Positions 693 to 24,483 of a DNA stretch of 32,173 nt are shown one piece after another; the stretch's first letter is position 1, and each line of letters begins with the position of its first letter. The notes beneath the pieces are model-generated. The model was given only the letters and a program-made list of their open reading frames with translations, did not search any database and was not told where the DNA came from. The DNA comes from Flavobacteriales bacterium (GTDB taxonomy: Bacteria; Bacteroidota; Bacteroidia; Flavobacteriales_G; JALEGO01). The stretch lies in contig JALEGO010000756.1 in the NCBI GenBank assembly GCA_022763165.1, positions 1 to 32,173 of the forward strand. Direction: 5' to 3'. The position numbers and the translations under genes are program-made.

Positions 693-1740
693 GATATTGT
701 TGATAGAGGATAACCTAGAAGTACGTGAGAATACTGCTGAACTCTTGGAGTTATCAAATTTTGATGTGACTACTGCCGAAAATGGTAAAGTAGGGATTCA
801 AAAAGCAAAGGAAGAACTACCAGACCTCATTATTTGTGATATCATGATGCCGGAATTAGATGGGTATGGTGTGCTTCAGTTTTTGAGTCGGGATCCTCAA
901 ACTGCCGGGATTCCTTTTGTCTTTTTGACGGCAAAGGCTGATAAAACGGATTTAAGAAAAGGGATGAATTTGGGTGCGGATGACTACTTGACAAAACCTT
1001 TTGAAGAAACTGAGCTGATCGATACAATTGAAATGCGTCTCAAGAAACATCGAAGACTTACCCAGGATTTTGAAAAGTCAAAAGGTGGTATTGAAGACTT
1101 CTTTGAGGAAGCAAAATCGCATGGAAGGTTGGAAGACTTGTTGGTTGACAAAAAGACCAGAAGCTTCAAGAAAAAGGAAAGCATTTACCGAGAAGGTGAC
1201 TATGCAAATTACTTGTACTTTTTAGAGTCAGGTAAAGTTAAGGGTTACAAAACTGATGATTATGGGAAAGAATTTGTAACAGAGTTATATGCAAAAGGTG
1301 ACTTTATTGGGTATTTCGATCTACTCAAAGGAGACGAGTACTCTGATTCTGCTGCCGCCTTGGAAGATTCACAATTACTGATTGTGCCAAGAAGAGATTT
1401 TGAAGATTTGGTATTTAAGAACAGAGATGTAGCGAGTCAATTCATTAAGCTCTTGGCCAACAATATTGGTGAACGGGAAGAAGAACTATTAAGGCTTGCT
1501 TTTTCTCCCGTAAGAGAAAGAGCCGCAGCCGCATTGTTGAAACTTCATAAAAAATATTCAAATGAAGATAACCCTAAAATCTCAATTTCTCGTGAAGATC
1601 TAGCAGGTATGGTGGGAACAGCCACCGAATCTATTATCAGAACCTTGAGCGACTTCAAAGAGGAGGGTCTTATTGAGATAAAATCCAGAGACATTTACCT
1701 TCGTGAAATTGAGAAACTCAAGGCTTTAGCTCAAGTCTGA
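679..1740 (+). CDS. Response regulator receiver fused to Crp/Fnr-type DNA-binding protein
   Basis: 353 aa. Residues 4-120 form a receiver domain with the acidic pair E10/D11, phospho-acceptor Asp54 (IICDIMMPE), Thr84 and Lys106 (DDYLTKPF). Residues about 150-265 are a cyclic-nucleotide-binding-like beta roll, followed by a dimer helix and a Crp-type helix-turn-helix at about 303-340. In the recognition helix, Glu317 and Arg321 match E209 and R213 of E. coli FNR, while Ile320 takes the place of Ser212. The only cysteine is Cys53 beside the phospho-Asp, so it cannot bind an FNR-type 4Fe-4S cluster. Control is therefore expected from the overlapping upstream kinase. It is the only Crp/Fnr protein in the window and the natural candidate to bind the TGA-N6-TCA palindromes found here. 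One such site overlaps its own stop codon. Confidence 0.93.
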   Translation: MKKDKILLIEDNLEVRENTAELLELSNFDVTTAENGKVGIQKAKEELPDLIICDIMMPELDGYGVLQFLSRDPQTAGIPFVFLTAKADKTDLRKGMNLGADDYLTKPFEETELIDTIEMRLKKHRRLTQDFEKSKGGIEDFFEEAKSHGRLEDLLVDKKTRSFKKKESIYREGDYANYLYFLESGKVKGYKTDDYGKEFVTELYAKGDFIGYFDLLKGDEYSDSAAALEDSQLLIVPRRDFEDLVFKNRDVASQFIKLLANNIGEREEELLRLAFSPVRERAAAALLKLHKKYSNEDNPKISISREDLAGMVGTATESIIRTLSDFKEEGLIEIKSRDIYLREIEKLKALAQV

Positions 1741-1750
1741 CACAGATCAT
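1737..1750. promoter_or_regulatory. Crp/Fnr-type operator, site 1 (CTGACACAGATCAT)
   Basis: Fits [AC]TGAY-N4-RTCA[TG]. It overlaps the stop codon of the regulator gene and ends 70 bases before the ATG at 1821. The octamer GATCTTTA at 1795-1802, a weak relative of TAnnTTTG, lies 55 bp from the site centre, the same spacing as at four other promoters here. The core N4 (ACAG) is less AT-rich than at the other sites, so it is the weakest of the six. Confidence 0.5.
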
Positions 1751-1820
1751 TTTTTCTACTGACCTATCACAGGTTAAATCATAGTATTTTCTCTGATCTT
1801 TATTTCATAATTAGATAGAA

Positions 1821-2147
1821 ATGAGATCTTTATTAGTGATTCTTGCGCTTACATTTACATTGAGTGCAAATGTTAAGGGACAAAATGATTGTCATGTAAT
1901 AGTTCAAATCTCGGAATCTCAGTCTAAGGAAATGGGAATTCGTTCGTATTTCAATACACACAAGAGTATCTCATTGGAATACTATTGTGGGGAAAGTGGC
2001 TTTGCTGTATTCACTATTAATGAATCTCCCTTGTCAGATGACGGGGATTTTAGAATGTTAATTACCAATGAACTTAAGAAGGCAGGTGTCTCAAGTCCTG
2101 TAATTGTTAAGGTTAAAATTATTGGAAGTTCATCAAATAAATGTTAA
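1821..2147 (+). CDS. Small exported protein of unknown function
   Basis: 108 aa with a signal peptide (MRSLLVILALTFTLSANVKGQ, cleavage likely near residue 20), then a mature part of about 87 aa containing three cysteines (NDC near the N-terminus, YYC in the middle, and the C-terminal residue Cys108). I do not recognise a family. It is the first gene of a likely operon with the coiled-coil/HMA protein (3-base gap) and the universal stress protein, downstream of a putative Crp/Fnr operator at 1737. Metal or redox handling in the periplasm would suit the cysteines and the HMA neighbour, but that is inference from context only. Confidence 0.75.
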   Translation: MRSLLVILALTFTLSANVKGQNDCHVIVQISESQSKEMGIRSYFNTHKSISLEYYCGESGFAVFTINESPLSDDGDFRMLITNELKKAGVSSPVIVKVKIIGSSSNKC

Positions 2148-2150
2148 CCC

Positions 2151-2846
2151 ATGCTAACGAATAAAATTGTACGATTACATCAAGCCGATGAACATAGGCT
2201 AGACGAATTATTGTTTTTGAAAGACGAAGTTCGCTTCTTTAAAAAGGCCATGAGCAACTATTTCCTCAAGCTACTTCATCAAAATGCTTTAGAAGAAGCG
2301 GAGCGTTTGTCAAGTGAAATTATTGAAGTAGAAAAGGTTATTCAATCTGTATTGCAAAGGTTAAACATCCTTGAAAAGGAGATCAGTTTCGTAGTGTGCG
2401 ATCCTAGTGATGAAGGAGAGGGACGCCTATTAAGTTTTGGGCAGGAGTTGGAAGTAGAACTAAGAGAGGTCGAAGAGCATGTCAGAGATCTGAAAAGAAG
2501 ACTTTTTATTTTTCTGGAACATACGAATGTTTCTGAAAGGGAATGGTTATCAAGAAAGGGAATCAAAAGACTCAGAGAGGTGAAGATTTACAACCTAAAA
2601 TGTGGAGGCTGCGCGAATACAATAATAAAAGAGTTATCAAGGATAAAAGGTGTAACATCCATCGAAGTGGAAGAACATGAATCGATCGTACGACTAGAAG
2701 CTTCTTCTGAAACCGTTATGGGGAAGGTAAAAACAAGACTAACCGAACTGGGCTATCCACCAATTGAAGGTAAAAACACAATGGGTCGTAAAGCAAAGTC
2801 CTATGTGAGCTGCATGAAGGGAAGAATTAATGAACCAACAACATAA
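2151..2846 (+). CDS. Coiled-coil protein with C-terminal heavy-metal-associated domain
   Basis: 231 aa. Residues about 5-130 are charged and helical with heptad-like stretches, including an acidic run around 90-115, and no membrane segment. Residues about 142-205 form an HMA/copper-chaperone fold: the metal loop is LKCGGCANT with Cys151 and Cys154, followed by the typical pattern GVTSIEVEEHESIVRLEA and TRLTELGYPP. HMA domains of this kind bind Cu(I) or other soft metals and hand them to P-type ATPases. A copper-transporting P-type ATPase for cbb3 oxidase is encoded 13 kb downstream. The protein sits 3 bases after the exported protein and 6 before the universal stress gene, so the three are probably co-transcribed. 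The long helical N-terminal extension is unusual for a chaperone that is normally about 70 aa. Confidence 0.82.
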   Translation: MLTNKIVRLHQADEHRLDELLFLKDEVRFFKKAMSNYFLKLLHQNALEEAERLSSEIIEVEKVIQSVLQRLNILEKEISFVVCDPSDEGEGRLLSFGQELEVELREVEEHVRDLKRRLFIFLEHTNVSEREWLSRKGIKRLREVKIYNLKCGGCANTIIKELSRIKGVTSIEVEEHESIVRLEASSETVMGKVKTRLTELGYPPIEGKNTMGRKAKSYVSCMKGRINEPTT

Positions 2847-2852
2847 ATTATT

Positions 2853-3674
2853 ATGAATACTAGAATATTGATACCCACTGACTTTTCTGAAACAGCAAAA
2901 GCTGCATTTGAATACGTGTACGAACTATTTGGCAAGGAAGCGCATTATGACATACTCAATTGTTATTATGATTTATCGGTTGAAGGTGTTGGTGAGCCAT
3001 ATATGGAGGTCTTAAAGTCAAGTTCAGAAAAGAGAATGCTCGAAGAGTTTGATCGCATCAAAGAAAAATATGACATTGCGGAAGGGAAATTGAGAGGATT
3101 ATCAAACTATGGTACTCCAATCTTTGGGATTAAAAGTGCAACCCAGGAAACGAAATACGACTTGGTTACTATGGGAACTCATGGCGCTTCTGGAATGAAG
3201 GAATTGTTTATTGGAAGCAATACAGCAGAAGCCTTGAAGAATTTGGAAGTTCCGCTGCTTGTTGTACCAGTTGGAGCAGAAGAGCCTAAAATTGAAAATA
3301 TAGTATTTGCTGCGGACTATCAGTTCTTAGATCAGGATAAATTGGACATTTTAAGAAGGATTGCCGAACCACAAAAGGCTAAACTATGGGCCTTGCACAT
3401 TGAACAGCCGGTCTTAAGCATTGATGATAGAACGGAACAGCGTGTTGAGCAAATTATTTTAAAGAGAGCAATATCCGATTTTGAGCATCAATTTGTGGAT
3501 CTGCCCCAAGGAAATATAGAAAAGAGCATTACACAGTTTGTCGAAAGGCATGATGGCGATTTATTGGTTATGGTAAGAAGAGAGTATTCCTTCGTAGAAA
3601 ACTTGATTAAAACGAGCCAGACCAAGAAGATGGCAATGCACACCAAGGTACCTTTATTGGTTTTACCAGAATAG
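2853..3674 (+). CDS. Tandem universal stress protein (two Usp domains)
   Basis: 273 aa, made of two Usp domains in the arrangement common in Bacteroidota: residues 1-143 begin RILIPTDFSETAKAAFEYV and contain the nucleotide-binding loop pattern (MGTHGASGMKELFIGSNTAEAL), and the second, more degenerate half begins near IENIVFAADYQFL and ends VPLLVLPE. Cytoplasmic; the first half should bind ATP, while the second lacks the glycine loop. It is the last gene of the group starting at 1821 and ends 9 bases before the convergent SulP gene. A paralogue with the same architecture lies at 24983-25798, also behind a putative Crp/Fnr operator, which supports a role in low-oxygen adaptation. Confidence 0.93.
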   Translation: MNTRILIPTDFSETAKAAFEYVYELFGKEAHYDILNCYYDLSVEGVGEPYMEVLKSSSEKRMLEEFDRIKEKYDIAEGKLRGLSNYGTPIFGIKSATQETKYDLVTMGTHGASGMKELFIGSNTAEALKNLEVPLLVVPVGAEEPKIENIVFAADYQFLDQDKLDILRRIAEPQKAKLWALHIEQPVLSIDDRTEQRVEQIILKRAISDFEHQFVDLPQGNIEKSITQFVERHDGDLLVMVRREYSFVENLIKTSQTKKMAMHTKVPLLVLPE

Positions 3675-3683
3675 CTAGACTTA

Positions 3684-5402: not shown

Positions 5403-5552
5403 GACGGCTCTATAGTATAAAAGAGTTTCCCCTACCTAACAAAACTATAACATGAAGTCGAAACCTAGTGTTACTTTAGTCACTCAATTCTTAAAATAAA
5501 CCTGTCGTCATTTGCTGAAAGGCAATAATCATGATAACTCTTTTAGGAACGG

Positions 5553-5566
5553 ATGACATTCATCAT
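5553..5566. promoter_or_regulatory. Crp/Fnr-type operator, site 2, hemN promoter (ATGACATTCATCAT)
   Basis: Fits the shared palindrome. The -7-like octamer TTTCTTTG at 5589-5596 (one base off TAnnTTTG) is centred 33 bp from the site centre, which places the operator near -41, the class II activator position, and predicts a start of transcription near 5600. The site lies inside the longest possible hemN reading frame, which argues that the real start codon is downstream at 5612. Confidence 0.7.
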
Positions 5567-5611
5567 TTTTTAAGTCTACAGCATGCTATTTCTTTGAGTC
5601 AGTTCAAAATT

Positions 5612-6955
5612 ATGACGCTAGATAACCGCCTTTACGATAAGTATAATCAATCTGTTCCCAGATATACTTCATATCCCGCATTACCAAATTGGCATCAAAC
5701 ACCAACAGAAGGGGAATGGAAAACACTTGTGCAGAACACGTTTAGAAAAAGCAATTCTGAAAAAGGAATAAGCCTTTATATTCATCTACCTTTTTGTGAG
5801 AGTTTGTGCACGTACTGCGCTTGTAATAAAAGAATTACAAAAAACCACAAAGTGGAAATTCCATATTTGAGGTCGTTACTCAAGGAATGGGAAATCTATA
5901 AAGGATTATTTGAAGAAAAACCGATCATCAAAGAATTGCATCTTGGTGGTGGTACACCGACATTTTTTAAAGCAAGAAATTTAGAATACTTTCTGTCTCA
6001 ACTTTTGGAGGATGCTGTTATTCCCGAAAACAAGGCCTTTAGTTTTGAAGGGCATCCAAGCAATACTACTTTGGACCATTTACAAGTTTTGGCAAAGTTT
6101 GGGTTTAATAGAATGAGCTTAGGCATCCAGGACATGGATCTAGAAGTTCAAAGGGCTATTAATCGCTTTCAAACGACTGAAGAAATTACAGAGGTTGTAA
6201 ATAGTGCAAGGGGCTTGGGGTTTAGTTCGATCAATTTCGACATCATTTATGGTTTGCCTTTTCAAAAGTTGTGTAGTCTGCCTAAAACCGTAGATCTTGT
6301 TAATCTTCTTAGGCCTGAAAGAATAGCCTTCTATGGCTACGCACATGTGCCATGGAAAAGCAAAGTACAGAGAAAATATTCAGATCATGATGTGCCTAAG
6401 GGGTCTAGCAAAAGACTACTTTATGAATTTGGAACAGCTCAGTTTAGGGAACTTGGATACAAGGACTTTGGTTTGGATCATTTTGCTTTGCCCAGCGATG
6501 AGTTATTTAAAGCTTATAAAAACAAAACCTTACACAGAAACTTCATGGGTTATACGATCCAAGATACGGACTTGTTAATTGGCTTAGGATGTTCAGCAAT
6601 AAGCGATTGTGGAAATGCAATGATTCAAAATGAGAAACTTGTTGAGCAATATCAATCTATAATAAATCAGGGAGAAATTCCACTAATAAAAGGACATGTG
6701 CTTTCTGATATGGACCTCAAAGTAAAAGATGCGATTTTGGAGCTTTTGTGTCAACATGAATTACCATTTAGACATGAATTGCCGCTGAGAAGTTTGAGTG
6801 ATATGAAGGCTTTTCTTCAAGATGAGCTAATAAGTTTCACCAAAGACAAATTAATCGTTACAAAAAAAGGAGAACCGTTTATCAGAACGATTTGTGCTGC
6901 TTTAGATCCTTACATGCGCAATAAAGTTGATGGTATGTTTTCTCGTGCAGTATAA
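5612..6955 (+). CDS. hemN: Oxygen-independent coproporphyrinogen III oxidase (radical SAM)
   Basis: 447 aa from ATG 5612. The frame is open back to an ATG at 5531, but HemN proteins begin just before the RYTSYP motif (here DKYNQSVPRYTSYPALPNW), and the extra 27 codons would contain a promoter and operator, so 5612 is chosen. The radical-SAM cluster ligands are Cys62, Cys66 and Cys69, with the HemN-specific Cys71 (CESLCTYCAC), and the SAM glycine motif follows (HLGGGTPTF). A C-terminal HemN domain is present (FMGYTIQDTDLLIGLGCSAIS). It decarboxylates coproporphyrinogen III to protoporphyrinogen IX without oxygen, using SAM, in the cytoplasm. Heme made this way would supply the cbb3 oxidase encoded downstream. 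The class II-like operator at 5553 suggests induction at low oxygen. Confidence 0.96.
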   Translation: MTLDNRLYDKYNQSVPRYTSYPALPNWHQTPTEGEWKTLVQNTFRKSNSEKGISLYIHLPFCESLCTYCACNKRITKNHKVEIPYLRSLLKEWEIYKGLFEEKPIIKELHLGGGTPTFFKARNLEYFLSQLLEDAVIPENKAFSFEGHPSNTTLDHLQVLAKFGFNRMSLGIQDMDLEVQRAINRFQTTEEITEVVNSARGLGFSSINFDIIYGLPFQKLCSLPKTVDLVNLLRPERIAFYGYAHVPWKSKVQRKYSDHDVPKGSSKRLLYEFGTAQFRELGYKDFGLDHFALPSDELFKAYKNKTLHRNFMGYTIQDTDLLIGLGCSAISDCGNAMIQNEKLVEQYQSIINQGEIPLIKGHVLSDMDLKVKDAILELLCQHELPFRHELPLRSLSDMKAFLQDELISFTKDKLIVTKKGEPFIRTICAALDPYMRNKVDGMFSRAV

Positions 6956-7153: not shown

Positions 7154-7155
7154 AA

Positions 7156-15133: not shown

Positions 15134-15208
15134 GATTTATCGTTTAAATGTTGACTTAAAGGTCCAAAAATCATCTGTCAATGAACATCAGGCTAGTCAT
15201 TTGAAAAC

Positions 15209-15222
15209 CTGATTTATATCAT
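15209..15222. promoter_or_regulatory. Crp/Fnr-type operator, site 3 (CTGATTTATATCAT)
   Basis: Fits the shared palindrome and lies 75 bases before the minus-strand CBS start at 15133. The minus-strand octamer GACCTTTA (15157-15164) is 55 bp from the site centre, nearly the same octamer as at site 1; GATTTTTG at 15165-15172 is a better -7 match but at 47 bp. Confidence 0.68.
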
Positions 15223-15296: not shown

Positions 15297-15638
15297 TTAT
15301 AGCAATAAGTTTATTGCGATGATAATAGTATCTACAATAATTGCGACTATACTCCATCGGACAATAGTCTTCATTGGAGCAACAGCCAAGAGCATTGATA
15401 GCGTTCCCATAGTTGGAATTACGACTGCGATCAACTGCCATAATACTGTTACGGCACCGGACCATACTGCCACCCCGCCATAACATCCAACAACTAAGAG
15501 CGCCATCGAGATGATTGCAAAGCGGTTAAACTCTAGTTTTTCTTCCCAACTCACTTTTTGAGGTTGTGTCTCAACTGCAGGTGCAGTAGTTGTTGATTTT
15601 ATTCTTGCTCCTTGTCCAACTGATATTGTAGATTCCAT
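15297..15638 (-). CDS. Small membrane protein linked to the cbb3 cluster, unknown
   Basis: 113 aa. A polar N-terminal part of about 38 residues rich in Thr, Ala and Gln is followed by three hydrophobic segments (RFAIISMALLVVGCYGGVAV; LWQLIAVVIPTMGTLSMLLAVA; WSIVAIIVDTIIIAINLLL). I do not recognise a named family. It is divergent from ccoI and shares with it operator site 4, which sits 73 bases upstream of this start. The minus-strand octamer TAATTTAG (15660-15667) is 55 bp from the site centre. A strong terminator follows, so it is a single-gene transcript. Co-regulation suggests a role in microaerobic respiration or copper delivery; the activity is unknown. Confidence 0.8.
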   Translation of the reverse strand: MESTISVGQGARIKSTTTAPAVETQPQKVSWEEKLEFNRFAIISMALLVVGCYGGVAVWSGAVTVLWQLIAVVIPTMGTLSMLLAVAPMKTIVRWSIVAIIVDTIIIAINLLL

Positions 15639-15711
15639 AATTATTCAATTTTATTGGAACTAAATTACCTGGATTTCAAACCATATTGAATTGCATTTGT
15701 CATATGAAAGC

Positions 15712-15725
15712 ATGACATATATCAT
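15712..15725. promoter_or_regulatory. Crp/Fnr-type operator, site 4, shared by divergent genes (ATGACATATATCAT)
   Basis: Part of the 16-bp palindrome CATGACATATATCATG (15711-15726). On plus, TACTTTTA (15748-15755, one base off TAnnTTTG) is 33 bp from the site centre, placing it near -41 for ccoI, with a very short leader before ATG 15761. On minus, TAATTTAG (15660-15667) is 55 bp away, placing it near -62 for the 113-aa gene. One site can thus serve both promoters in the two activator positions. A second inverted pair, TGTCAT-N8-ATGACA, overlaps its left side. Confidence 0.72.
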
Positions 15726-15760
15726 GTTACTAAAAAGCTGAGCCTAATACTTTTATAAAT

Positions 15761-18163
15761 ATGTCTTTGATCAAAGAAAAGGTTGAGTGTTTCCATTGTT
15801 CGGATGAATGTGTGACTACGATTGAATATGATGACAAAATGTTTTGTTGCCAAGGTTGCAAAGGGGTGTATCAGTTGTTTTCTGACAATGGAATGATCGA
15901 TTATTATGATCTTGATGAAAAAGCGGGCATTAAACCAGGAGAGAATGATTTAGACGCATTTTTTTATCTCGATCAACCAGAGATAAAGCAGGACCTGCTC
16001 AGTTTTTACGATGAGGCCTCGAAATACGAGAAGGTCAATTTACACCTACCAATGATTCATTGTAGTGCATGCATTTGGTTACTAGAAAATCTTCCGAAAA
16101 TCAATTCTGGCGTTGTTAATGTCAGGGTCAATTTTGCTCAAAGAAAAGCGGATATAACATACAACAAAGAGAAGTTGAGCCTAAGACAACTGGCTCTTTT
16201 TTTAAAAAGCATTGGTTATGAGCCCAGAATTCAATTAGAGGCCTTGCGTTCGTCAAATCCGAAATCACAAACGGACAGAAATCTATTGTATAAACTTGGT
16301 TTGGCAGGCTTTGCCTTTGGTAACGTGATGTTACTCAGCTTTCCTTCCTATTTTGGTGATCAGAGTTTTCAATTCAGTAAATATCAGAGCACCTTTTCTT
16401 TCGTTAGTTTTTTGCTTTCCATTCCTGTAATTCTTTACTCAGCATCTGATTATATTAAGGCGGCCTATTATGCGGTCAAAAGAAAATCCCTAGGGATAGA
16501 TATTCCCATTACAATTGGTCTTTTTGCGATTTTTTTTCAAAGTGTTTGGGAAATAACTTCTCATACTGGTCATGGTTATTTTGATTCTTTAACTGGTTTG
16601 GTATTCTTTCTCTTAATTGGAAAGTGGTTTCAAGGAAGAGTATACAAAAGACTATCGTTTGATAACGACTATTCATCATTTTTTCCTGCCGCAGTAAGAT
16701 ATATAGTTGGTGATAGAGTTGACTCCAAAAAGGTTGATGACTTGAAAACGGGCGATATTATTGAAGTGAGGAGTAATGAAATTATCCCGGTTGATTGCAA
16801 ACTTCTTTCTTCAACATCACAGATTGATTACAGTTTTGTTACTGGTGAATCAGAGCCCACCAGTAAACTTAAGGGCAACATTTTATTTGCAGGGGGCAGA
16901 GTAATTGGTAAATCTGTTAGGTTGGAGGTTCTAAAAGAGTTGAAGGAAAGTCAATTATTGCGTTTGTGGAAGTCAGACAACCATAAAAAACAAGAAAAGC
17001 CAATGATAAAACTTACACAGAGCATTGCAAAAGTCTTTACGATAACCGTATTGATCCTTGCAGTTTCTGGTTTCTTTTTTTGGTTAGATCAGGGCTTAAG
17101 TAAAGCTATTTTTGTGTTTTCTTCGGTATTAATTATTGCTTGTCCATGTGCTCTTGCCTTGGCCGCCCCATTTGGTTTGGGCAACAGTTTAAGACTTTTG
17201 GCAAAGAGAGGATTTTATTTGAAAGATATCGCCACGCTTGAACGTCTCACTAAGATTAAACATATAGTCTTTGATAAGACCGGGACCATCACGTCCAACA
17301 AAGACTTTAGAGTACATTATACTGGAGATTCTTTTTCAGATTCAGAATGGAGAATCATTAAAGGGACAACAAGGCATTCCCTCCATCCTTTGAGCATCGC
17401 AATAACGAATAGTATTGATCAACCTCCCTTAGAAATTGATAATTTTCAAGAAATTCCGGGCAAAGGTTTAAAAGCAGAATATTCAGGAAAACCTGTTGCT
17501 TTAGGTTCTGAAGAATTCATTCGAGAAAGATCAAACAAGGAATACGTTTTGAATGGTGAGAATCATGTAATGATAGCCTTAAATGAAAAAATAGGGGCAT
17601 TTACTGTACGCAAAAGCTTGCGGCAGAACATAAAACAAAGTCTTGGTAAACTCTATGAAATCTGTGAAATCTCATTGTTATCTGGGGATTCCGATAGAGA
17701 GGAGGAAAGAATGAAAGATGTTTTTCCTGATGGAGTGGCACTCAATTTTGACCAATCCCCAGAACAAAAACGTGATTACATCGACAAACTTCAAAAGCAC
17801 ACTCCGTGTATGATGATAGGAGATGGATTGAATGATTCGGGCGCTCTTCAGGCAAGTTATGTAGGGATGGCAGTGTCAGATGATCATCAGAATTTCACTC
17901 CTGCTTGCGACATCATTACAGAGGGAAGAGTTTTGAATAGCATTCACATTCTACTTAAAATAGCAAAGAACTCTATGTTAGCTGTGCGCTTAAGTGTGGT
18001 TTTTTCATTATTGTATAATGTCATTGGCTTGTACTTTGCTTTGTCCGGTAACTTGGCGCCTATAGTTGCCGCCATTTTGATGCCTTTGAGCTCTATAAGT
18101 GTAGTTGTTTTTGTGTTTATTTTAACCCAAATGATTCACAAAAGAACCAAAAACAGCATCTAA
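15761..18163 (+). CDS. ccoI: Copper-exporting P-type ATPase for cbb3 oxidase assembly
   Basis: 800 aa. The N-terminal Cys-rich metal domain (CFHCSDEC, CCQGCKGV; residues 10-33) is typical of FixI/CcoI ATPases. The HMA domain follows with Cys101 and Cys104 (IHCSACIW). Eight membrane helices are expected, with the ion-channel motif CPC at 461-463 (IIACPCALA). The actuator loop has TGES (361-364), phosphorylation occurs at Asp505 (DKTGT), the HP motif is present (SLHPLS), and the hinge is GDGLNDSGAL. It moves Cu(I) across the inner membrane for the CuB centre of the cbb3 oxidase encoded immediately downstream. ATG 15761 lies only a few bases after the predicted transcription start. It has its own promoter and operator, and ccoS has another. 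Confidence 0.96.
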   Translation: MSLIKEKVECFHCSDECVTTIEYDDKMFCCQGCKGVYQLFSDNGMIDYYDLDEKAGIKPGENDLDAFFYLDQPEIKQDLLSFYDEASKYEKVNLHLPMIHCSACIWLLENLPKINSGVVNVRVNFAQRKADITYNKEKLSLRQLALFLKSIGYEPRIQLEALRSSNPKSQTDRNLLYKLGLAGFAFGNVMLLSFPSYFGDQSFQFSKYQSTFSFVSFLLSIPVILYSASDYIKAAYYAVKRKSLGIDIPITIGLFAIFFQSVWEITSHTGHGYFDSLTGLVFFLLIGKWFQGRVYKRLSFDNDYSSFFPAAVRYIVGDRVDSKKVDDLKTGDIIEVRSNEIIPVDCKLLSSTSQIDYSFVTGESEPTSKLKGNILFAGGRVIGKSVRLEVLKELKESQLLRLWKSDNHKKQEKPMIKLTQSIAKVFTITVLILAVSGFFFWLDQGLSKAIFVFSSVLIIACPCALALAAPFGLGNSLRLLAKRGFYLKDIATLERLTKIKHIVFDKTGTITSNKDFRVHYTGDSFSDSEWRIIKGTTRHSLHPLSIAITNSIDQPPLEIDNFQEIPGKGLKAEYSGKPVALGSEEFIRERSNKEYVLNGENHVMIALNEKIGAFTVRKSLRQNIKQSLGKLYEICEISLLSGDSDREEERMKDVFPDGVALNFDQSPEQKRDYIDKLQKHTPCMMIGDGLNDSGALQASYVGMAVSDDHQNFTPACDIITEGRVLNSIHILLKIAKNSMLAVRLSVVFSLLYNVIGLYFALSGNLAPIVAAILMPLSSISVVVFVFILTQMIHKRTKNSI

Positions 18164-18228: not shown

Positions 18229-18242
18229 ATGATTTATGTCAT
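18229..18242. promoter_or_regulatory. Crp/Fnr-type operator, site 5, ccoS-ccoNOQP promoter (ATGATTTATGTCAT)
   Basis: Part of the 16-bp palindrome CATGATTTATGTCATG (18228-18243). It ends 75 bases before the ccoS start. The -7-like TTCCTTTG at 18288-18295 (one base off TAnnTTTG) is 56 bp from the site centre. It is expected to activate the whole ccoS-to-SafE operon. Confidence 0.75.
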
Positions 18243-18317
18243 GGATTTGCACAAACCAATGTCATTTTAATCCTTTCAATATAGCCATTCCTTTGACATT
18301 AATAATTGAACGAATTT

Positions 18318-18476
18318 ATGAGTGTCATATTCTTATTGCTGATCTGTAGTCTGGTTTTGGCCATTACCTTTTTGTTGGCTTTCATATGGACTATTAAGAA
18401 CAAGCAATACGATGATGATTACTCAGCATCTGTAAGAATGCTTTTTGAGCATAAACCAAAAGAGAAATCAGAATAA
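18318..18476 (+). CDS. ccoS: cbb3-type oxidase assembly protein CcoS
   Basis: 52 aa (MSVIFLLLICSLVLAITFLL then AFIWTIKNKQYDDD and a short polar tail). One membrane helix followed by the WTIKNKQYDDD motif is the CcoS/FixS signature (usual form W.hk.gQFdD). CcoS is needed to load cofactors into cbb3 oxidase, acting with the CcoI copper ATPase. It lies between ccoI (155 bases upstream) and ccoNO (7 bases downstream) and is the first gene after operator site 5. Length is normal for the family. Confidence 0.93.
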   Translation: MSVIFLLLICSLVLAITFLLAFIWTIKNKQYDDDYSASVRMLFEHKPKEKSE

Positions 18477-18483
18477 TTGAATC

Positions 18484-20592
18484 ATGGGATTAGTTAAGTA
18501 TCATTATGATAATAAGATTGTTAGGAACTTCTTAGTTGCTACATCTGTTTGGGGACTTGTGGGAATGTTGGGAGGCCTTTTGGTCGCATTACAGCTTGTT
18601 TTTCCTGAAGCCAACTTCGCTGAATATTTCACATTTGGGCGGTTACGGCCAGTTCACACAAATGCAGTCATTTTTGCCTTTGTGGGGAATGGAATTTTCG
18701 CTGGGGTTTACTACTCTCTTCAGCGATTATTGAAAACGAGAATGTGGAGTGATGCTCTGAGTAATATAAACTTTTGGGGGTGGCAATTGATTATTGTGGC
18801 AGCAGCTCTAACCTTGCCTCTGGGATATACAACAGGTAAGGAGTATGCGGAATTAGAATGGCCTATTGATATTGCAATTACTTTGATGTGGGTGGTTTTT
18901 GGACTGAATATGTTTATGACCATTATCAAAAGAAGAGAGCGTCATTTATATGTTGCGGTGTGGTTTTACATTGCAACCTTCGTGACTGTAGCAATGTTGC
19001 ACATTGTAAATAGTTTTGAGTTGCCAATCAGCTTCTTAAAGAGTTACTCATGGTATGCTGGAGTACAAGACGCTTTGGTACAATGGTGGTACGGTCATAA
19101 TGCGGTTGCATTTTTCTTAACTACCCCCTACTTGGGACTGATGTATTATTTCATTCCCAAAGCATCAAACAGACCAGTATACTCATATAAGCTCTCAATC
19201 ATTCACTTTTGGGCTCTGATTTTTATATACATCTGGGCTGGTCCGCATCACCTTCTGTATTCTGCTCTTCCTGATTGGGCGCAATCTTTAGGGGTTGTTT
19301 TTTCAGTAATGCTTATTGCTCCATCCTGGGGAGGTATGCTCAATGGACTACTGACCTTAAGAGGAGCCTGGGACAAAGTTAGAGAAAGCGCAACTCTTAA
19401 ATTTATGGTAGTTGCCGTTACTTGCTATGGAATGGCGACTTTCGAAGGACCTTTGATGTCACTTAAAAATGTAAACGCCATTAGCCACTTCACCGATTGG
19501 ACAATTGCTCACGTGCATGTTGGGGGTTTAGGTTGGAATGGGTTTTTGACTTTTGGAATGCTCTATTGGTTAATCCCAAAAATCTTCCAAACCAAGCTCT
19601 TTTCGAAAAGTGCTGCAAACTTCCATTTCTGGATTGGAACCCTTGGGATACTCTTTTATGCAATACCAATGTATTTCGCTGGCTTTACTCAGAGTTTAAT
19701 GTGGAAGGAATTTACTGCAGCTGGCTTTCTCAGATATCCTAACTTCCTTGAGACTGTCCTGGAGATAAAATGGGCATATGCTCTAAGAGCTTTTGGTGGA
19801 GCGCTATACATTGTAGGAGCTGTTGCCATGGTCTGGAACTTGTGGAAAACAGCTAAATCAGGAAGTCTTTTAGCGAATGAACCAGCAGAGGCTTACGAGT
19901 TAGAGAAGAACGTGACTCATAAAGGAGGCCATTGGCACCGTTGGATTGAAAGAAGACCGGTTCAAATGTTAGTCCTATCATTAGTTTTAGTGGCTATCGG
20001 AGGCATTATTGAGATTGTGCCAACATTCTTGGTGAGCTCAAATATTCCAACAATTGAAAATGTAAAGCCTTATACCCCTCTCGAATTACACGGCAGAGAC
20101 TTATACATCAAAGAAGGATGCTACACATGTCACTCTCAGATGATCCGTCCATTTCGTTCCGAAACGGAGCGTTATGGAGAGTATTCCAAAGCAGGAGAAT
20201 TTGTTTATGACCACCCCTTTCAATGGGGCTCCAAGAGAAATGGACCTGATCTTCACAGAATCGGAGGAAAATATCCTGACTCATGGCATTATCACCACAT
20301 GATAGATCCAACATCAATGTCGCCTGGATCAATTATGCCAACATATGAACATATGGAAACGAATACCATAGACACATCAATGACAGACGAGAAAATACGC
20401 GCCATGCAAACCCTTGGTGTGCCATATCCAGAAGGATATGATTTAATGGCAAATCGAGATTTAGTTACACAAGCAGATAGCATTGTAAACAATCTAAAAA
20501 AGGATAACATTCAGATTACCTCAGATGCTGAGCTCGTTGCACTTATTGCCTATTTACAGAGATTAGGGACTGATATCAAAGGAAAAAAATAA
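18484..20592 (+). CDS. ccoNO: Fused cbb3-type cytochrome c oxidase subunits I and II (CcoN-CcoO)
   Basis: 702 aa. Residues about 1-460 are CcoN with 12 membrane helices and the metal ligands: His58 (RPVHTNA), the CuB histidine and crosslinked tyrosine region (QWWYGHNAVAFFLTTPYLGLMYYFIP), the His pair (GPHHLLYSALP), and the heme histidines (TDWTIAHVHVGGLGWNGF). A linker of about 30 residues (NEPAEAYELEKNVTHKGGHWHRWIERRP) leads into CcoO with one membrane anchor and heme c site CYTCH at 546-550, and an axial Met region (PGSIMPTYEHM). The N-O fusion is the Bacteroidota form. The enzyme reduces oxygen to water with high affinity and pumps protons in the inner membrane. Genes ccoQ and ccoP follow. 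Confidence 0.97.
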   Translation: MGLVKYHYDNKIVRNFLVATSVWGLVGMLGGLLVALQLVFPEANFAEYFTFGRLRPVHTNAVIFAFVGNGIFAGVYYSLQRLLKTRMWSDALSNINFWGWQLIIVAAALTLPLGYTTGKEYAELEWPIDIAITLMWVVFGLNMFMTIIKRRERHLYVAVWFYIATFVTVAMLHIVNSFELPISFLKSYSWYAGVQDALVQWWYGHNAVAFFLTTPYLGLMYYFIPKASNRPVYSYKLSIIHFWALIFIYIWAGPHHLLYSALPDWAQSLGVVFSVMLIAPSWGGMLNGLLTLRGAWDKVRESATLKFMVVAVTCYGMATFEGPLMSLKNVNAISHFTDWTIAHVHVGGLGWNGFLTFGMLYWLIPKIFQTKLFSKSAANFHFWIGTLGILFYAIPMYFAGFTQSLMWKEFTAAGFLRYPNFLETVLEIKWAYALRAFGGALYIVGAVAMVWNLWKTAKSGSLLANEPAEAYELEKNVTHKGGHWHRWIERRPVQMLVLSLVLVAIGGIIEIVPTFLVSSNIPTIENVKPYTPLELHGRDLYIKEGCYTCHSQMIRPFRSETERYGEYSKAGEFVYDHPFQWGSKRNGPDLHRIGGKYPDSWHYHHMIDPTSMSPGSIMPTYEHMETNTIDTSMTDEKIRAMQTLGVPYPEGYDLMANRDLVTQADSIVNNLKKDNIQITSDAELVALIAYLQRLGTDIKGKK

Positions 20593-20597
20593 AGAAC

Positions 20598-20762
20598 ATG
20601 TTAAAGTACATTAAACATCATATGGAATTGATTACAGGAATTGAAATCTTTCCAATTATATCGTTTCTCATATTCTTTCTATTCTTTATTGTAGTTGGGA
20701 TTTGGGTGTTTACAGCTAGGAAGAGCTATATCGATGAAATGAAGAATATACCACTGGATTGA
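20598..20762 (+). CDS. ccoQ: cbb3-type oxidase small subunit CcoQ
   Basis: 54 aa: a short N-terminal segment (MLKYIKHHMELITGIEIFP), one membrane helix (IISFLIFFLFFIVVGIWVFT) and a charged tail (ARKSYIDEMKNIPLD) ending in the IPLD motif common in CcoQ of this phylum. It lies 5 bases after ccoNO and 15 before ccoP. CcoQ stabilises the assembled oxidase. Recognition rests on position, size and topology as much as on sequence. Confidence 0.88.
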   Translation: MLKYIKHHMELITGIEIFPIISFLIFFLFFIVVGIWVFTARKSYIDEMKNIPLD

Positions 20763-20777
20763 TCTTAGAAGTTTTGA

Positions 20778-21929
20778 ATGAAATTGAGTAATATGAAAAG
20801 GATTTTCTCACTTGTTTTAGGAACACTATTCAGCGCTCCTCTATTCGCTGAAACACAACAAACAGCAGTTACGAATGATGACACAATCCTCTATATTCTA
20901 GGAGGGATAATGGTGATACTATTATTCCTAATTATTGGAGTGGGCTCCACAATAAGCAATCTTGCCGGGAACAAGGATTTTTGGAAAAACTATTCAAAAG
21001 AGAAGACAAACTCGAATCTAAAGACAATAATCATTTTCATAGCACTCTGGGGCATAAGTAATTCGGGTTTTTCGCTATCAGTTTCACCTCCTGCTGAACA
21101 AGCTGAAATGGCTGGTGAAGGTCAATTCATATTTTGGCTGCTTTTTATAACTGATATCATTCTTGCAATTGTGCTTTACACGATGATTAAGATCCTCAAT
21201 GGCATGACCAAAACGCTTGCTGGCAAAGATGAGGAAGAAAAGGAAGATGTGTTGGAAAAAGTGGCTGCAAGTTTGACAAGCGCTGTGCCAATTGAGAATG
21301 AGGAAACAATAATGATGGACCATGAATATGATGGTATTAGAGAATTGGACAATGTATTACCACCATGGTGGGTAGGGATGTTCTATGCTACGATAATCTT
21401 TGGTTTAATCTATGTTCCATATTACCATTTTGGTTCAGGTCAACTACAGGCAGAGGAATACGAAAGTGAAGTCGTTTTGGCTGAAGAGCAAAAGGCCGCA
21501 TATATGGCCAAAATGGCAAATTCGGTAAACGAGAGTAACGTCAAACTTATAACTGATGAGGTACGCCTAGAAAATGGTCGAAAGCTGTATATGAATAATT
21601 GCATCGCTTGCCACGGTGTGCAGGGTGAAGGAGGAGTAGGACCCAATTTGACAGATGAATACTGGATTCATGGAGGAGGAATTAAGAATGTCTTCAAAAC
21701 CATTAAATATGGAATTCCAGAAAAAGGAATGATTGCTTGGCAAGCACAAATGACTCCGGCACAACTCAATGAAGTTGCAAGTTATATTCTGAACAAATTC
21801 CAAGGAACAAATCCAAGCAACGGAAAAGAACCTCAAGGGGACCTTTATAAGGAAGCTCAATCAGCTCAAGAATCCGATACTATTTCGACTTTAAGTGATA
21901 CACTGGAGGTTGATACATTAAAAGAATGA
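20778..21929 (+). CDS. ccoP: cbb3-type oxidase subunit III (CcoP), single heme c
   Basis: 383 aa from ATG 20778; ATG 20793 (MKRIFSLVLGTLFSAPLFA) is equally good as a signal-peptide start. After the signal come two further hydrophobic pairs (TILYILGGIMVILLFLIIGVG; TIIIFIALWGISNSGF and FIFWLLFITDIILAIVLYTMI), then the CcoP anchor motif (YDGIRELDNVLPPWWVGMFYATIIFGLIYVPYYH). A cytochrome c domain follows at about 265-345 with heme site CIACH (275-279) and the Met region near KGMIAW. Proteobacterial CcoP has two heme c domains; only one is present here, with a long acidic tail. It passes electrons to CcoO/CcoN. The last codon overlaps the start of ccoG. Confidence 0.95.
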   Translation: MKLSNMKRIFSLVLGTLFSAPLFAETQQTAVTNDDTILYILGGIMVILLFLIIGVGSTISNLAGNKDFWKNYSKEKTNSNLKTIIIFIALWGISNSGFSLSVSPPAEQAEMAGEGQFIFWLLFITDIILAIVLYTMIKILNGMTKTLAGKDEEEKEDVLEKVAASLTSAVPIENEETIMMDHEYDGIRELDNVLPPWWVGMFYATIIFGLIYVPYYHFGSGQLQAEEYESEVVLAEEQKAAYMAKMANSVNESNVKLITDEVRLENGRKLYMNNCIACHGVQGEGGVGPNLTDEYWIHGGGIKNVFKTIKYGIPEKGMIAWQAQMTPAQLNEVASYILNKFQGTNPSNGKEPQGDLYKEAQSAQESDTISTLSDTLEVDTLKE

Positions 21930-23338
21930 GCCAAAACAGCACGAATACTGATCAATCATATCGCGATAAAATAGCAACCGTAGATGGTTCAGGAAAAAGA
22001 CTTTGGATTTTCCCTAAAAAACCATTTGGGAAATTCTATAACTGGAGAAAAATTACCAGCTACTTTCTGATTGCTATTTTATTAGGAGGACCTTTTATCA
22101 CAGTACAAGGCCAACCATTGCTTATGCTTAACATCCTTGAAAGGAAGTTTGTGATTTTTGGTAAAATCTTCTGGCCACAGGACATTCATCTTTTTGCATT
22201 ATTAGTAATCACAGGTGTGGTGTTTATTATTCTTTTCACTGTGATATTCGGCAGATTGTTCTGCGGATGGGTTTGCCCTCAGACCATTTTTATGGAAATG
22301 CTTTTCAGGCGTATCGAATATTGGTTTGAAGGAGATTGGAAACACCAGCAAAAACTTTCTAAAATGCCATGGAATTTTGAGAAGATTCGAAAAAGGGGTG
22401 GGAAATGGCTGGCGTTTTGGGTCGTGTCATTTGTGATAGCCAACGTATTTCTTGCTTATATTATTGGAAGTAAGTCGCTCATCAGTATTATTACAGACCC
22501 CATTTCTGCTCATATTGGAGGCCTAAGTTCATTGATGATTTTTACAACTATTTTTTTTCTGGTGTTTGCATGGTTTAGAGAGCAGGTTTGTACGGTTGTT
22601 TGCCCCTATGGTCGACTACAAGGAGTTCTTTTAGATAGAAACTCGGTAGTCGTAGCATATGATCACAAAAGAGGAGAATCTAGGGGGAAATACAGAAAAG
22701 GGGAAGATCGAACTTCCAATGGGAAAGGGGATTGTATAGATTGTTCTCAATGCGTGCATGTTTGTCCCACTGGAATTGATATTCGGAATGGCACCCAGCT
22801 AGAGTGTGTGAATTGCACAGCCTGCATTGATGCCTGCGATTTTATGATGGAAAAGACCGGTCTGGAAAAAGGTCTTATTAGATACGCGAGTGAAAACCAA
22901 ATTGAGACAGGCACAAAGTTCCAATTCACCACCAGAATGATCGCCTCATCGGCAGTTCTTGGAATTTTGATGGTGATTTTTACAGTGTTGTTAATTACCA
23001 GAACCGATGTGGAACTCTCATTATTAAGAGCTCCTGGAATGCTTTATCAAGAAAAGAGCGACAACCACTATTCTAATCTGTATACTTTCAAGTTGATTAA
23101 TAAAACAAACAAAGACTTTGATGTAACATTCAAAGTGGAAAACAAAATCGGGGAAGTTGAATTAGTAGGAGATTCTCTATCACATATCAAAAGAGAAGCT
23201 ATTTCGGAAGGGGCTCTTTTTATACTGCTCAAAAACACTGAACTGGAGGGAAAGAAGACTCCTTTAGTAATAGGCGTTTACAAAGATGAAAAGCGCATTG
23301 ATAAAATTAAAACGACTTTCATAGGTCCAAAAATTTAA
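21926..23338 (+). CDS. ccoG: cbb3 oxidase accessory protein CcoG (4Fe-4S, copper handling)
   Basis: 470 aa, overlapping ccoP by ATGA. Membrane segments occur near 40-60, 90-115, 160-180, 195-215 and 340-360. Motifs: the first Cys pair (FCGWVCPQTIFMEMLFRRIEYW), a second pair (CTVVCPYGRLQGVLLD), then two 4Fe-4S ferredoxin sets (CIDCSQCVHVCPTGIDIRNG and CVNCTACIDACDFMMEK). A periplasmic immunoglobulin-like C-terminal domain (about 370-470) completes the family layout (FixG/CcoG, RdxA). CcoG is thought to reduce Cu(II) to Cu(I) for the CcoI/CcoA copper route. Gene order ccoNO-Q-P-G-H is standard. Confidence 0.96.
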   Translation: MSQNSTNTDQSYRDKIATVDGSGKRLWIFPKKPFGKFYNWRKITSYFLIAILLGGPFITVQGQPLLMLNILERKFVIFGKIFWPQDIHLFALLVITGVVFIILFTVIFGRLFCGWVCPQTIFMEMLFRRIEYWFEGDWKHQQKLSKMPWNFEKIRKRGGKWLAFWVVSFVIANVFLAYIIGSKSLISIITDPISAHIGGLSSLMIFTTIFFLVFAWFREQVCTVVCPYGRLQGVLLDRNSVVVAYDHKRGESRGKYRKGEDRTSNGKGDCIDCSQCVHVCPTGIDIRNGTQLECVNCTACIDACDFMMEKTGLEKGLIRYASENQIETGTKFQFTTRMIASSAVLGILMVIFTVLLITRTDVELSLLRAPGMLYQEKSDNHYSNLYTFKLINKTNKDFDVTFKVENKIGEVELVGDSLSHIKREAISEGALFILLKNTELEGKKTPLVIGVYKDEKRIDKIKTTFIGPKI

Positions 23339-23341
23339 ATT

Positions 23342-23770
23342 ATGAGTTGGGGAAACGGAATTACGGTAGCTATAGTTTTATTCATAAGCTTCATTCTATA
23401 TTTTGTCTTTAGGATGATTAACCATGATGTGGATCTGGTGGCTGAAGACTACTATGCTCAAGAACTGGCCTATCAAGATCAGATTCATAAAATTCAGAAT
23501 GCTGAACAAAGAGGAGTAACCACTAAAGTCATTATGTTGAATGATTCCCTAAAGATAGAATTCGATAATGTTGAAGGCTTTGAAAATGGCGAATTAACCA
23601 TGTACAGACCATCAAACCCAAGTAAAGATTTAAAAGTACCATTAATCCTAAGAGATAAGGCATTCACATTGGCAACAAAAGATCTCAATACTGGTAAGTA
23701 TGTCGCAAAGTTGAACTTTGATTTGCAAGGCACCCCTTGCTACGCTGAAAACATCGTTGTCATCCCATGA
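23342..23770 (+). CDS. ccoH: cbb3 oxidase assembly protein CcoH (FixH)
   Basis: 142 aa: one N-terminal membrane helix (GNGITVAIVLFISFILYFVFRM) followed by the FixH motif (DVDLVAEDYYAQELAYQDQIHKIQNAE), then a beta-rich periplasmic domain. It starts 3 bases after ccoG and overlaps the next gene by ATGA. FixH helps in late assembly of the oxidase. Confidence 0.93.
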   Translation: MSWGNGITVAIVLFISFILYFVFRMINHDVDLVAEDYYAQELAYQDQIHKIQNAEQRGVTTKVIMLNDSLKIEFDNVEGFENGELTMYRPSNPSKDLKVPLILRDKAFTLATKDLNTGKYVAKLNFDLQGTPCYAENIVVIP

Positions 23771-24465
23771 TTTTTGTATCAGCTTTCATAATCGGTTTAC
23801 TGGGTAGCTGGCATTGCGTTGGTATGTGCGGACCCATCTTATCACTTACACCTGGAGGTTCATTGAAGCATCCGTCTAAGTTTTCTGGTTATCACTTTGG
23901 ACGAATTCTTTCTTATGTCATTATTGGTGCCACGGTTTTTACTTTGGGTCAGAGTTTTAATATGATTGGTGTTCAAAAGCAAATTAGTCTGGTAGTAGGA
24001 GGTCTATTGCTTACCGCATGCCTTATTTCAATGTTTCGAGGTGGTGCACGACTAAATAGTATTGAAAATAGACTGGGAGCTCCTGTTTTTAGCTTACTCA
24101 AAAGGTATTACGACCCCAAAAAAAGAAATAGCCTAGTCATGGGCTTGATCAATGGATTTTTACCATGTGGATTGGTTTATGTAACTGCTTTGGGGACTTT
24201 AATCTTAGAAGATGGCTTTTACATGACTCTTTATATGGTGGCATTTGGTCTTGGAACAGTTCCTATGTTGCTCCTATTCATTGCTTTCAAGGATAGATTA
24301 AAAAAGAACTTAAAGATTAACATTTCCAGAACTTCAGCACTGCAATTATCCTTTTTTATTGTTGGAACTTTTTTGATTCTCAGAGGACTTGAACTAGGCA
24401 TTCCTTTTATTAGCCCTGAACTTGACCCAGATTTGTTGACCTCTGGGAAACCTTCTTGTCATTGA
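23767..24465 (+). CDS. SafE/DsbD-like membrane protein, probable copper or assembly factor
   Basis: 232 aa with about six membrane helices and the family motif near the start (GLLGSWHCVGMCGPI), a second Cys-containing helix (LINGFLPCGLVYVTALGTLI), and a C-terminal PSCH. The paired proline-cysteine helices are those of the DsbD_2/sulfite-exporter-like family often placed at the end of Bacteroidota cbb3 operons. It may carry Cu or electrons across the inner membrane; the exact substrate is not settled. It overlaps ccoH by ATGA and is the last gene of the operon before operator site 6. Confidence 0.88.
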   Translation: MIFVSAFIIGLLGSWHCVGMCGPILSLTPGGSLKHPSKFSGYHFGRILSYVIIGATVFTLGQSFNMIGVQKQISLVVGGLLLTACLISMFRGGARLNSIENRLGAPVFSLLKRYYDPKKRNSLVMGLINGFLPCGLVYVTALGTLILEDGFYMTLYMVAFGLGTVPMLLLFIAFKDRLKKNLKINISRTSALQLSFFIVGTFLILRGLELGIPFISPELDPDLLTSGKPSCH

Positions 24466-24469
24466 TTTC

Positions 24470-24483
24470 ATGACATTAATCAG
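24470..24483. promoter_or_regulatory. Crp/Fnr-type operator, site 6 (ATGACATTAATCAG)
   Basis: Fits the shared palindrome and begins 4 bases after the last cbb3-operon stop codon, 71 bases before the CBS start at 24555. A perfect -7 element TAAATTTG (24528-24535) lies 55 bp from the site centre, the clearest promoter of the series. Confidence 0.75.

Follow-up and report, generated by a model that had tools for sequence, protein, structure and literature searches.

The 32,173-nucleotide stretch of Flavobacteriales DNA analysed here (the window) carries six palindromic sites that are real and conserved, each of them one half of a larger operator. The block they occupy is likely to be an island for microoxic respiration under the control of a compressed, two-protein form of the FixL-FixJ-FixK pathway, in which a fused two-component regulator probably turns on promoters with paired sites when oxygen is scarce. 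As judged by sequence comparison, the tandem operator and a -7 box at fixed distance are conserved across Bacteroidota around the module of PAS kinase and REC-Crp regulator. The induction of high-affinity respiration in Bacteroidota has so far been poorly described, and we supply a regulator, a kinase, a two-site operator with its base-pair spacing and a list of targets, which takes in genes without a known role (a 108-aa exported protein, a 231-aa HMA protein, a 113-aa membrane protein and the CBS pairs). A search of open-access literature found no paper dealing directly with a Bacteroidota operator of this kind or with a REC-Crp/FixL pair.

Paired sites and the -7 box

All six 14-mers that the initial annotation had placed at 1737, 5553, 15209, 15712, 18229 and 24470 were confirmed; they are the only matches to [AC]TGAY-N4-RTCA[GT] in the window, and all lie at the expected promoter positions, at the starts of genes or operons, with the site at 1737 sharing bases with the stop codon of the regulator gene (679-1740). 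The earlier estimate was about 0.5 chance matches in 32 kb; dinucleotide shuffling gave 0.77 expected (6 found, 1/100 shuffles reaching 6). A further core match, at 31722, was discarded because it falls within a gene, that beginning at 31447.

Because the pattern was derived from the six sites themselves, the fair test lies in other genomes, for which we used the DNA within 10 kb on either side of 80 genes orthologous to that regulator (1.39 Mb). The N4 spacing gave 177 matches in this DNA, against 15-43 at other spacings, and 142/183 sites were intergenic, in 9% of the DNA (control spacings, 0-5). With N4 the outer base was A in 69 cases, C in 33, G in 6 and T in 22, so the described replacement of the first T by A or C is a real preference. 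The canonical TTGAY-N4-RTCAA was set aside as the motif, since it was not clearly enriched around the orthologues (outer T in 22 with N4 and 19 with the N3 control), and the outer T of the FNR anaerobox TTGAT-N4-ATCAA is not the preferred base at these sites.

While the six sites had been described correctly, the second member of each pair had been overlooked. Outside the window, a second palindrome with at least 5/6 of the core lies exactly 22 bp off at 87/143 sites (other offsets average 1.7), and one with a 6/6 core at 59/143 (other offsets, 0.2); just 2/28 coding-region sites have a second palindrome at that distance. A TAnnTTTG element, the -7 box of Bacteroidota promoters, begins 29.5 bp beyond the centre of the proximal site, with 52 and 66 boxes (at least 5/6) at 29.5 or 51.5 bp and about 3.7 per other offset. 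Since this box spans -12 to -5 in Flavobacterium psychrophilum according to the main text of PMC9723704, the site centres would fall at about -41.5 and -63.5, the former being, as a predicted position, that of a class II Crp/Fnr site. Transcription start sites (TSSs) predicted by extrapolating this Flavobacterium rule (PMC9723704, main text) lie 11-19 nt upstream of the start codon in 6/7 window promoters (Table 1).

A matrix (PWM) trained on other genomes alone and then run over the window recovered seven promoters with scores of 23-31, the best of 300 shuffles scoring 19.3. These precede exp108-HMA-Usp, hemN, both CBS genes, the 113-aa membrane gene, ccoI and ccoS-ccoNO. The proposed six-site regulon is supported, with its count amended to seven promoters with tandem pairs spaced by 22 bp, or 23 bp at ccoS-ccoNO, one pair being common to the divergent ccoI and 113-aa genes. 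Relatives of the 113-aa membrane protein carry a site in other loci.

The operator also makes gene and transcription starts predictable. For hemN, the open reading frame begins at 5531, ahead of the site at 5553; the HemN family model TIGR00538 aligns only from residue 29 of this frame, which makes the ATG at 5612 the probable true start. The ccoI transcript is predicted to be nearly leaderless (TSS 15760, gene from 15761), and ccoS was found. The initial annotation had overlooked ccoS.

Table 1. Operator sites, -7 boxes and genes in the window (fractions, matching core or box positions; PWM, score of the held-out matrix)
Feature	Position	Strand	Sequence	Remarks
Partner histidine kinase, C-terminal half (HisKA-HATPase)	24..692	+		Frame open from base 3
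Regulator: receiver (REC), cNMP-fold, Crp HTH	679..1740	+		Pfam: Response_reg 3e-27, cNMP_binding 1.7e-21, HTH_Crp_2 1.1e-15
Distal site, exp108-HMA-Usp promoter (1821-3674)	1737..1750	+	CTGACACAGATCAT	
Proximal site, exp108-HMA-Usp	1759..1772	+	CTGACCTATCACAG	22 bp on; 5/6 core; PWM 31.1
-7 box, exp108-HMA-Usp	1795..1802	+	GATCTTTA	4/6; predicted TSS 1807, ATG 1821
exp108, 108-aa exported protein	1821..2147	+		First in operon; no Pfam match
231-aa protein, C-terminal heavy-metal-associated (HMA) domain	2151..2846	+		PF00403 4.9e-8
Universal stress protein (Usp1)	2853..3674	+		PF00582 2.9e-26
Distal site, hemN promoter	5531..5544	+	ATGATAACTCTTTT	4/6
Proximal site, hemN promoter	5553..5566	+	ATGACATTCATCAT	PWM 29.9
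-7 box, hemN	5589..5596	+	TTTCTTTG	5/6; predicted TSS 5601
hemN, oxygen-independent coproporphyrinogen III oxidase	5612..6955	+		Probable start; TIGR00538 2.1e-116
CBS-pair protein 1 (CBS1)	14711..15133	-		PF00571 3.8e-28
-7 box, CBS1	15157..15164	-	GACCTTTA	4/6; predicted TSS 15152
Proximal site, CBS1	15187..15200	-	ATGACTAGCCTGAT	5/6; PWM 28.7
Distal site, CBS1	15209..15222	-	ATGATATAAATCAG	
113-aa membrane protein	15297..15638	-		No Pfam match
-7 box, 113-aa gene	15660..15667	-	TAATTTAG	5/6; predicted TSS 15655
Shared divergent operator, second site	15690..15703	.	ATTGCATTTGTCAT (distal for ccoI); ATGACAAATGCAAT (proximal for 113-aa gene)	4/6; PWM 29.7 on - strand
Shared operator, consensus site	15712..15725	.		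Proximal for ccoI, distal for 113-aa gene; PWM 23.0 on + strand
-7 box, ccoI	15748..15755	+	TACTTTTA	5/6; predicted TSS 15760
ccoI, copper P-type ATPase	15761..18163	+		ATPase-cat_bd, E1-E2_ATPase; heavy-metal P-type ATPase models
Distal site, ccoS-ccoNO promoter	18229..18242	+	ATGATTTATGTCAT	
Proximal site, ccoS-ccoNO	18252..18265	+	CAAACCAATGTCAT	23 bp on; 4/6; PWM 26.0 with 23-bp spacing
-7 box, ccoS-ccoNO	18288..18295	+	TTCCTTTG	5/6; predicted TSS 18300
ccoS, 52 aa	18318..18476	+		First gene of cbb3 operon; FixS PF03597 8.2e-19
ccoNO, fused cbb3 oxidase subunits I/II	18484..20592	+		PRK14485 family, E reported as 0
Remainder of cbb3 operon: ccoQ-like, ccoP, ccoG, ccoH, DsbD_2 membrane protein	20598..24465	+		FixH, DsbD_2 and ccoG matched; FixQ (Pfam; weak) and ccoP below cut-off
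Distal site, CBS2-Usp2	24470..24483	+	ATGACATTAATCAG	
Proximal site, CBS2-Usp2	24492..24505	+	ATGATGACTGTTAA	22 bp on; 5/6; PWM 29.0
-7 box, CBS2-Usp2	24528..24535	+	TAAATTTG	6/6; predicted TSS 24540
CBS2 and Usp2	24555..25798	+		PF00571 4.3e-31, PF00582 2.4e-25

A fused regulator and its partner kinase

The Pfam matches of the regulator to the cNMP-binding fold and the Crp HTH, both above cut-off, assign it to the Crp/Fnr superfamily, and these domains take the place of the LuxR/GerE output of FixJ; by its domain content, the protein is a response regulator and not a FixJ. Its phosphoacceptor receiver is intact (E10, D11, D54 and K106 in 76/76 orthologues, T84 in 73/76), and E317/R321 of the recognition helix are present in 76/76. 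The N-terminal cysteine cluster of Fe-S FNR proteins is absent, the sole conserved cysteine being C53, beside the receiver aspartate, and a by-eye alignment with E. coli CRP puts Y212 and variable residues at 222-223 where CRP has the Arg/Glu that contact cAMP. Because the Crp/Fnr part is devoid of both cAMP and Fe-S ligands, oxygen sensing would have to come from the kinase; the Crp/Fnr-type microaerobic regulon that had been proposed is supported, with a regulator that would not itself sense oxygen.

The N-terminal, FixL-like PAS half of the kinase would be a PAS protein (L318:2651-3475) that runs off the end of another contig of this genome, C697; the continuity of the protein and the order Usp-kinase-regulator elsewhere suggest that the two contigs lie side by side. 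The best PDB matches of this protein are FixL (1.7e-15) and DosP, the haem-ligand histidine is present in 69/69 kinases, and in sequence alone the domain has the character of the FixL-FixJ haem-binding PAS, so we regard it as a FixL-like haem PAS domain with predicted haem binding.

In the mechanism we propose, oxygen would leave the haem PAS domain, upon which the kinase would phosphorylate the regulator at D54. Two dimers of the regulator would then sit on one face of the helix, near -63.5 and -41.5, with the dimer at the proximal site serving as a class II activator in place of the -33 box. Induction would extend to the cbb3 oxidase genes, the assembly and copper genes that go with them, hemN for anaerobic haem synthesis, the genes for CBS and universal stress proteins, and the operon of the kinase and regulator. 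Direct tests are possible in cultured relatives (Dyadobacter, Runella, Reichenbachiella).

Conservation and the reader of the operators

Near regulator orthologues, hemN has a site upstream in 12/15 cases, and hemN, ccoI, ccoN, ccoS, Usp and kinase-regulator operons recur as targets in many families, which bears out the expected conservation in orthologous promoters. The expected genome-wide enrichment, for which sampled stretches were also drawn on, held in part: the raw 14-mer pattern occurred at chance over whole genomes (145 vs 154 for the N7 control in the own genome), and raw counts were discarded as support for a regulon, while the intergenic share was raised (5/50 vs 1/51 in the own genome, 15/25 vs 3/18 in G053). 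Tandem-plus-box matches numbered 463 against 289 at shifted spacing in genomes with the regulator (p=0.0013), and 392 against 438 in those without it. Tandem-pattern counts in the own genome were not above control, and tandem-plus-box matching (at most 3 mismatches) was rejected as a target finder there, since matches outside the window are mostly background; 4/24 of those examined are intergenic, 2 of these preceding Usp genes. The operator signal is local and intergenic. A post hoc pattern without regulatory role, which the equality of genome-wide raw counts with spacing controls might suggest, is scarcely credible as an account of the six matches in view of the promoters recovered by the held-out matrix, the intergenic enrichment and, in other genomes, the pairing at precisely 22 bp and the constant distance to the -7 box.

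We infer from sequence that the protein binding these operators is the REC-Crp regulator. Another Crp/Fnr protein can probably read the same operator in genomes without it, because 11/12 of their ccoN promoters share the tandem operator. Such genomes encode stand-alone Crp/Fnr proteins with the same recognition-helix consensus (GTATExxIR) and, in 19/21 examined, an N-terminal CxxC, and a stand-alone cysteine-bearing FNR is the probable reader of those ccoN operators. We think it unlikely that a stand-alone Fe-S FNR-type protein reads the operators generally, leaving REC-Crp to control something else or merely to modulate: genome-wide tandem enrichment is confined to genomes with the REC-Crp protein, the sites cluster at its own operon, and the own genome (86% complete) has, among the top matches listed, no stand-alone relative as strong as those of other genomes. 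The regulon could also be real with a kinase that senses another cue (redox, nitric oxide, light or a metal), making it a general stress regulon with cbb3 as one target. The many stress-type targets (Usp, Hsp20, CBS, TerB-like) would fit this, as would a relative of the same family (G003) that has regulator and operators without a cbb3 oxidase match; such a cue is nevertheless decidedly improbable given the FixL/DosP-type haem PAS with its invariant ligand histidine, the presence of hemN and cbb3, both classic low-oxygen genes, and the low-oxygen induction of cbb3 and haem genes in F. psychrophilum (main text of PMC9723704).

More broadly, we see an even chance that there is a phylum-wide code, in which REC-Crp would bind as two phosphorylation-dependent dimers at palindromes 22 bp apart, upstream of a Bacteroidota -7 promoter, and an Fe-S FNR would read the same operators in other lineages, evolution having exchanged the sensor (haem kinase or iron-sulphur) while operator and recognition helix were conserved.

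Comparison with known systems

FNR and Anr of E. coli and Pseudomonas share with this system the site geometry, the predicted class II position at -41.5, and hemN and cbb3 as targets, whereas the regulator lacks their Fe-S cysteines; its isoleucine presumably sits where E. coli FNR has the serine contacting the first T. CRP is alike in its cNMP-fold and HTH domains, but residues at the cAMP-contact positions are unconserved here, where activation would be by phosphorylation. Flavobacterium psychrophilum shows the same low-oxygen induction of cbb3 and haem genes and the same TAnnTTTG at -12 to -5, in a report whose main text mentions no Crp and, in the passages concerned, describes no operator or regulator (PMC9723704).

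Another close counterpart is the rhizobial FixL-FixJ-FixK cascade, together with hFixL-FxkR-FixK and FnrN (PMC7888657), which is alike in its FixL-type PAS kinase, its Crp/Fnr output protein, its TGAY-N4-RTCA palindromes, its targets (the cbb3 oxidase, fixNOQP, and assembly genes), and in one operator common to FixL-driven and Fe-S (FnrN) proteins. Here receiver and Crp/Fnr output are fused, and since they form one protein the step of fixK transcription is absent. The outer base is A or C here and T in rhizobia, and two sites 22 bp apart stand against a single activating anaerobox at -32 to -34 (PMC7888657). A Bacteroidota -7 box, and a regulon that extends to Usp and CBS genes, further set the present system apart.

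Paired palindromes ahead of the -7 box

The initial annotation had proposed that six sites fitting [AC]TGAY-N4-RTCA[TG], at 1737, 5553, 15209, 15712, 18229 and 24470, define a Crp/Fnr-type regulon. All six 14-mers lie at these positions, and the window contains no further match (6 vs 0.77 expected from shuffles). Since the pattern was derived from these same sites, it was tested on DNA elsewhere, in 80 named loci (1.39 Mb in total) fetched around orthologues of the regulator (51–61% identity). Here the N4 pattern had 177 matches, against 15–43 for each of N0–N3 or N5–N8, and the proposed preference for A or C at the outer base held (A 69, C 33, G 6, T 22). With the window counted in, 142 of 183 sites were intergenic, though intergenic DNA makes up 9% of bases; control spacings of 1, 3, 5 and 7 gave 0–5 intergenic matches. 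The enrichment anticipated from a genome scan appeared in the intergenic fraction and not in the raw count: the window's own genome, a bin of 86% completeness, assigned to Bacteroidota from related loci, in which the window is a complete contig (C480), holds 145 matches vs 154 for N7, which is chance level, with 5/50 intergenic in a sample vs 1/51 for the control, and in genome G053 15/25 were intergenic vs 3/18 for the control, and two of the three control matches themselves overlap N4 sites. A genome-wide regulon is thus marked out by the intergenic share of the matches and not by the 14-mer alone.

Without being searched for, a second palindrome (TGA-N6-TCA) emerged exactly 22 bp, centre to centre, from the known sites, and a TAnnTTTG box, the Bacteroidota -7 element, begins 29.5 bp or 51.5 bp (29.5 + 22) downstream. 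Among 143 unique sites outside the window, 87 have a 22-bp partner with at least 5/6 core bases (other offsets: mean 1.7, maximum 5) and 59 a perfect one (0.2 at other offsets), while such a partner accompanies 2 of 28 coding-region sites. As read from sequence, the operator is a pair of palindromes and not a single site. Class II Crp/Fnr activators are positioned at -41.5. Because the box occupies -12 to -5 in Flavobacterium psychrophilum (PMC9723704), the 29.5-bp distance predicts centres at -41.5 (proximal) and -63.5 (distal).

Promoters of the window

A held-out matrix covering the pair and the box was built from 124 promoters of other genomes, chosen because their box matched at 4/6 or better. 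It gave six top window matches (scores 23.0–31.1; best score across 300 shuffles, 19.3), and the ccoN promoter became the seventh (26.0) once a 23-bp spacing was permitted. The six listed sites all belong to predicted promoters, which number seven, each with paired sites. Predicted targets are 1821–3674, hemN, CBS1, the 113-aa membrane gene, ccoI, ccoS-ccoNO and CBS2-Usp2. The predicted transcription start lies 11–19 nt ahead of the start codon in six promoters and 1 nt ahead of it at ccoI; these distances require hemN to start at 5612, not 5531, and the HemN family model also points to 5612. They also bring out the previously unlisted ccoS, which accounts for the long leader ahead of ccoN. 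Elsewhere in this genome, contigs C697 and C305 provide two more tandem promoters, both in front of Usp genes. The matrix scan found no tandem promoter for the SbtA-type transporter, which is accompanied by a LysR-type gene, or for the SulP permease.

Features of the window and of related loci
Feature	Coordinates	Description
Regulator (REC-Crp)	679–1740	receiver, cNMP-fold, Crp HTH
SulP permease	3684–5402	inside island
LysR-type gene	12209–13111	
SbtA-type transporter	13655–14617	inside island; Na+-dependent, bicarbonate
Common operator pair	15690–15725	divergent ccoI and 113-aa gene; own -7 box per strand
ccoS (FixS match)	18318–18476	52 aa; between ccoN promoter and ccoN
L318	G000:C697:1-3477	tandem promoter, Usp, 129-aa protein, FixL-like PAS kinase cut at contig end
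L322	G003:C73:1-20000	tandem promoters: Hsp20; TerB-like/HMA/TauE operon; CBS-Usp operon; kinase-regulator operon
DoxX-family membrane gene	L078:9539-9961	
L320	G000:C45:6500-16053	second cbb3 cluster, own hemN
L323	G000:C433	ccoN-ccoI fragment

Regulator, kinase and proposed mechanism

Across 76 regulator orthologues E10, D11, D54 and K106 are invariant, as are E317 and R321 of the recognition helix (I320 in 75/76), and neither a cysteine cluster nor conserved Arg/Glu at cAMP-contact positions was found among them. The regulator's helix consensus, GTATExxIR, recurs in stand-alone Crp/Fnr proteins of relatives, 19/21 of which carry an N-terminal CxxC. Three loci from genomes without REC-Crp (L028, L029, L030) encode a degenerate kinase-like domain fused to a receiver 52–57% identical to that of the regulator; in G033, G037 and G040 a stand-alone Crp/Fnr gene is located ~8 kb away from this fusion gene.

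In nearly all loci a PAS histidine kinase is encoded upstream of the regulator. For its PAS domain, FixL gives a match of 5e-32 in L083 and of about 1e-12 in L070, and DosP is matched as well. At the position aligned with the FixL haem-ligand histidine, 69/69 kinases have His. The window holds the C-terminal half only; the PAS protein at the end of C697, whose best matches agree with those above (FixL, 1.7e-15), breaks off where the window kinase starts and follows a Usp gene that has a tandem promoter to itself. We infer that C697 is probably the left neighbour of the window. The 129-aa protein there has no Pfam match.

Upon an anatomy, conservation and geometry demonstrated at the sequence level, we propose a mechanism in which low oxygen would be the signal that turns the haem PAS kinase active, the kinase would phosphorylate D54, and phosphorylated REC-Crp, as the putative binding protein, would occupy the two palindromes on one DNA face, presumably cooperatively, and act as a class II activator for the cbb3, copper and haem genes, for CBS and Usp proteins and for the operon of kinase and regulator.

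In rhizobia, one anaerobox is common to FixK and FnrN (PMC7888657). The system proposed here resembles the FixL-FixJ-FixK cascade with FnrN in how it would work, but its output domain is not FixJ-type, its operator is a pair whereas rhizobia have one site only, at -32 to -34, and its outer bases are unlike the anaerobox; it is therefore not a member of that class. Among the open-access main texts searched, none was found to describe either the operator or the regulon of the fused regulator.

Conservation and reach

Conservation, proposed as a check of the regulon, is borne out at ccoN, where pair and box (summed core matches at least 9/12, box at least 4/6) occur in 28/29 upstream regions from Bacteroidia genomes: 17/17 with the regulator and 11/12 without. 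Genome-wide, genomes with the regulator hold 463 pair-plus-box matches vs 289 at a spacing shifted by 5 bp (excess in 19/26), and those without it 392 vs 438, with no excess. In the same-family genome G003, which encodes the regulator, L322 contains four tandem promoters, but no ccoN match was found in that genome, so the regulon extends beyond cbb3. The DoxX-family gene and its relatives have the site in 9/10 loci carrying the gene. The extra cbb3 copies of the window's own bin, L320 and L323, could be paralogues or contamination (bin 5.7%); both have CTGACAAAAGTCAT and a -7 box.
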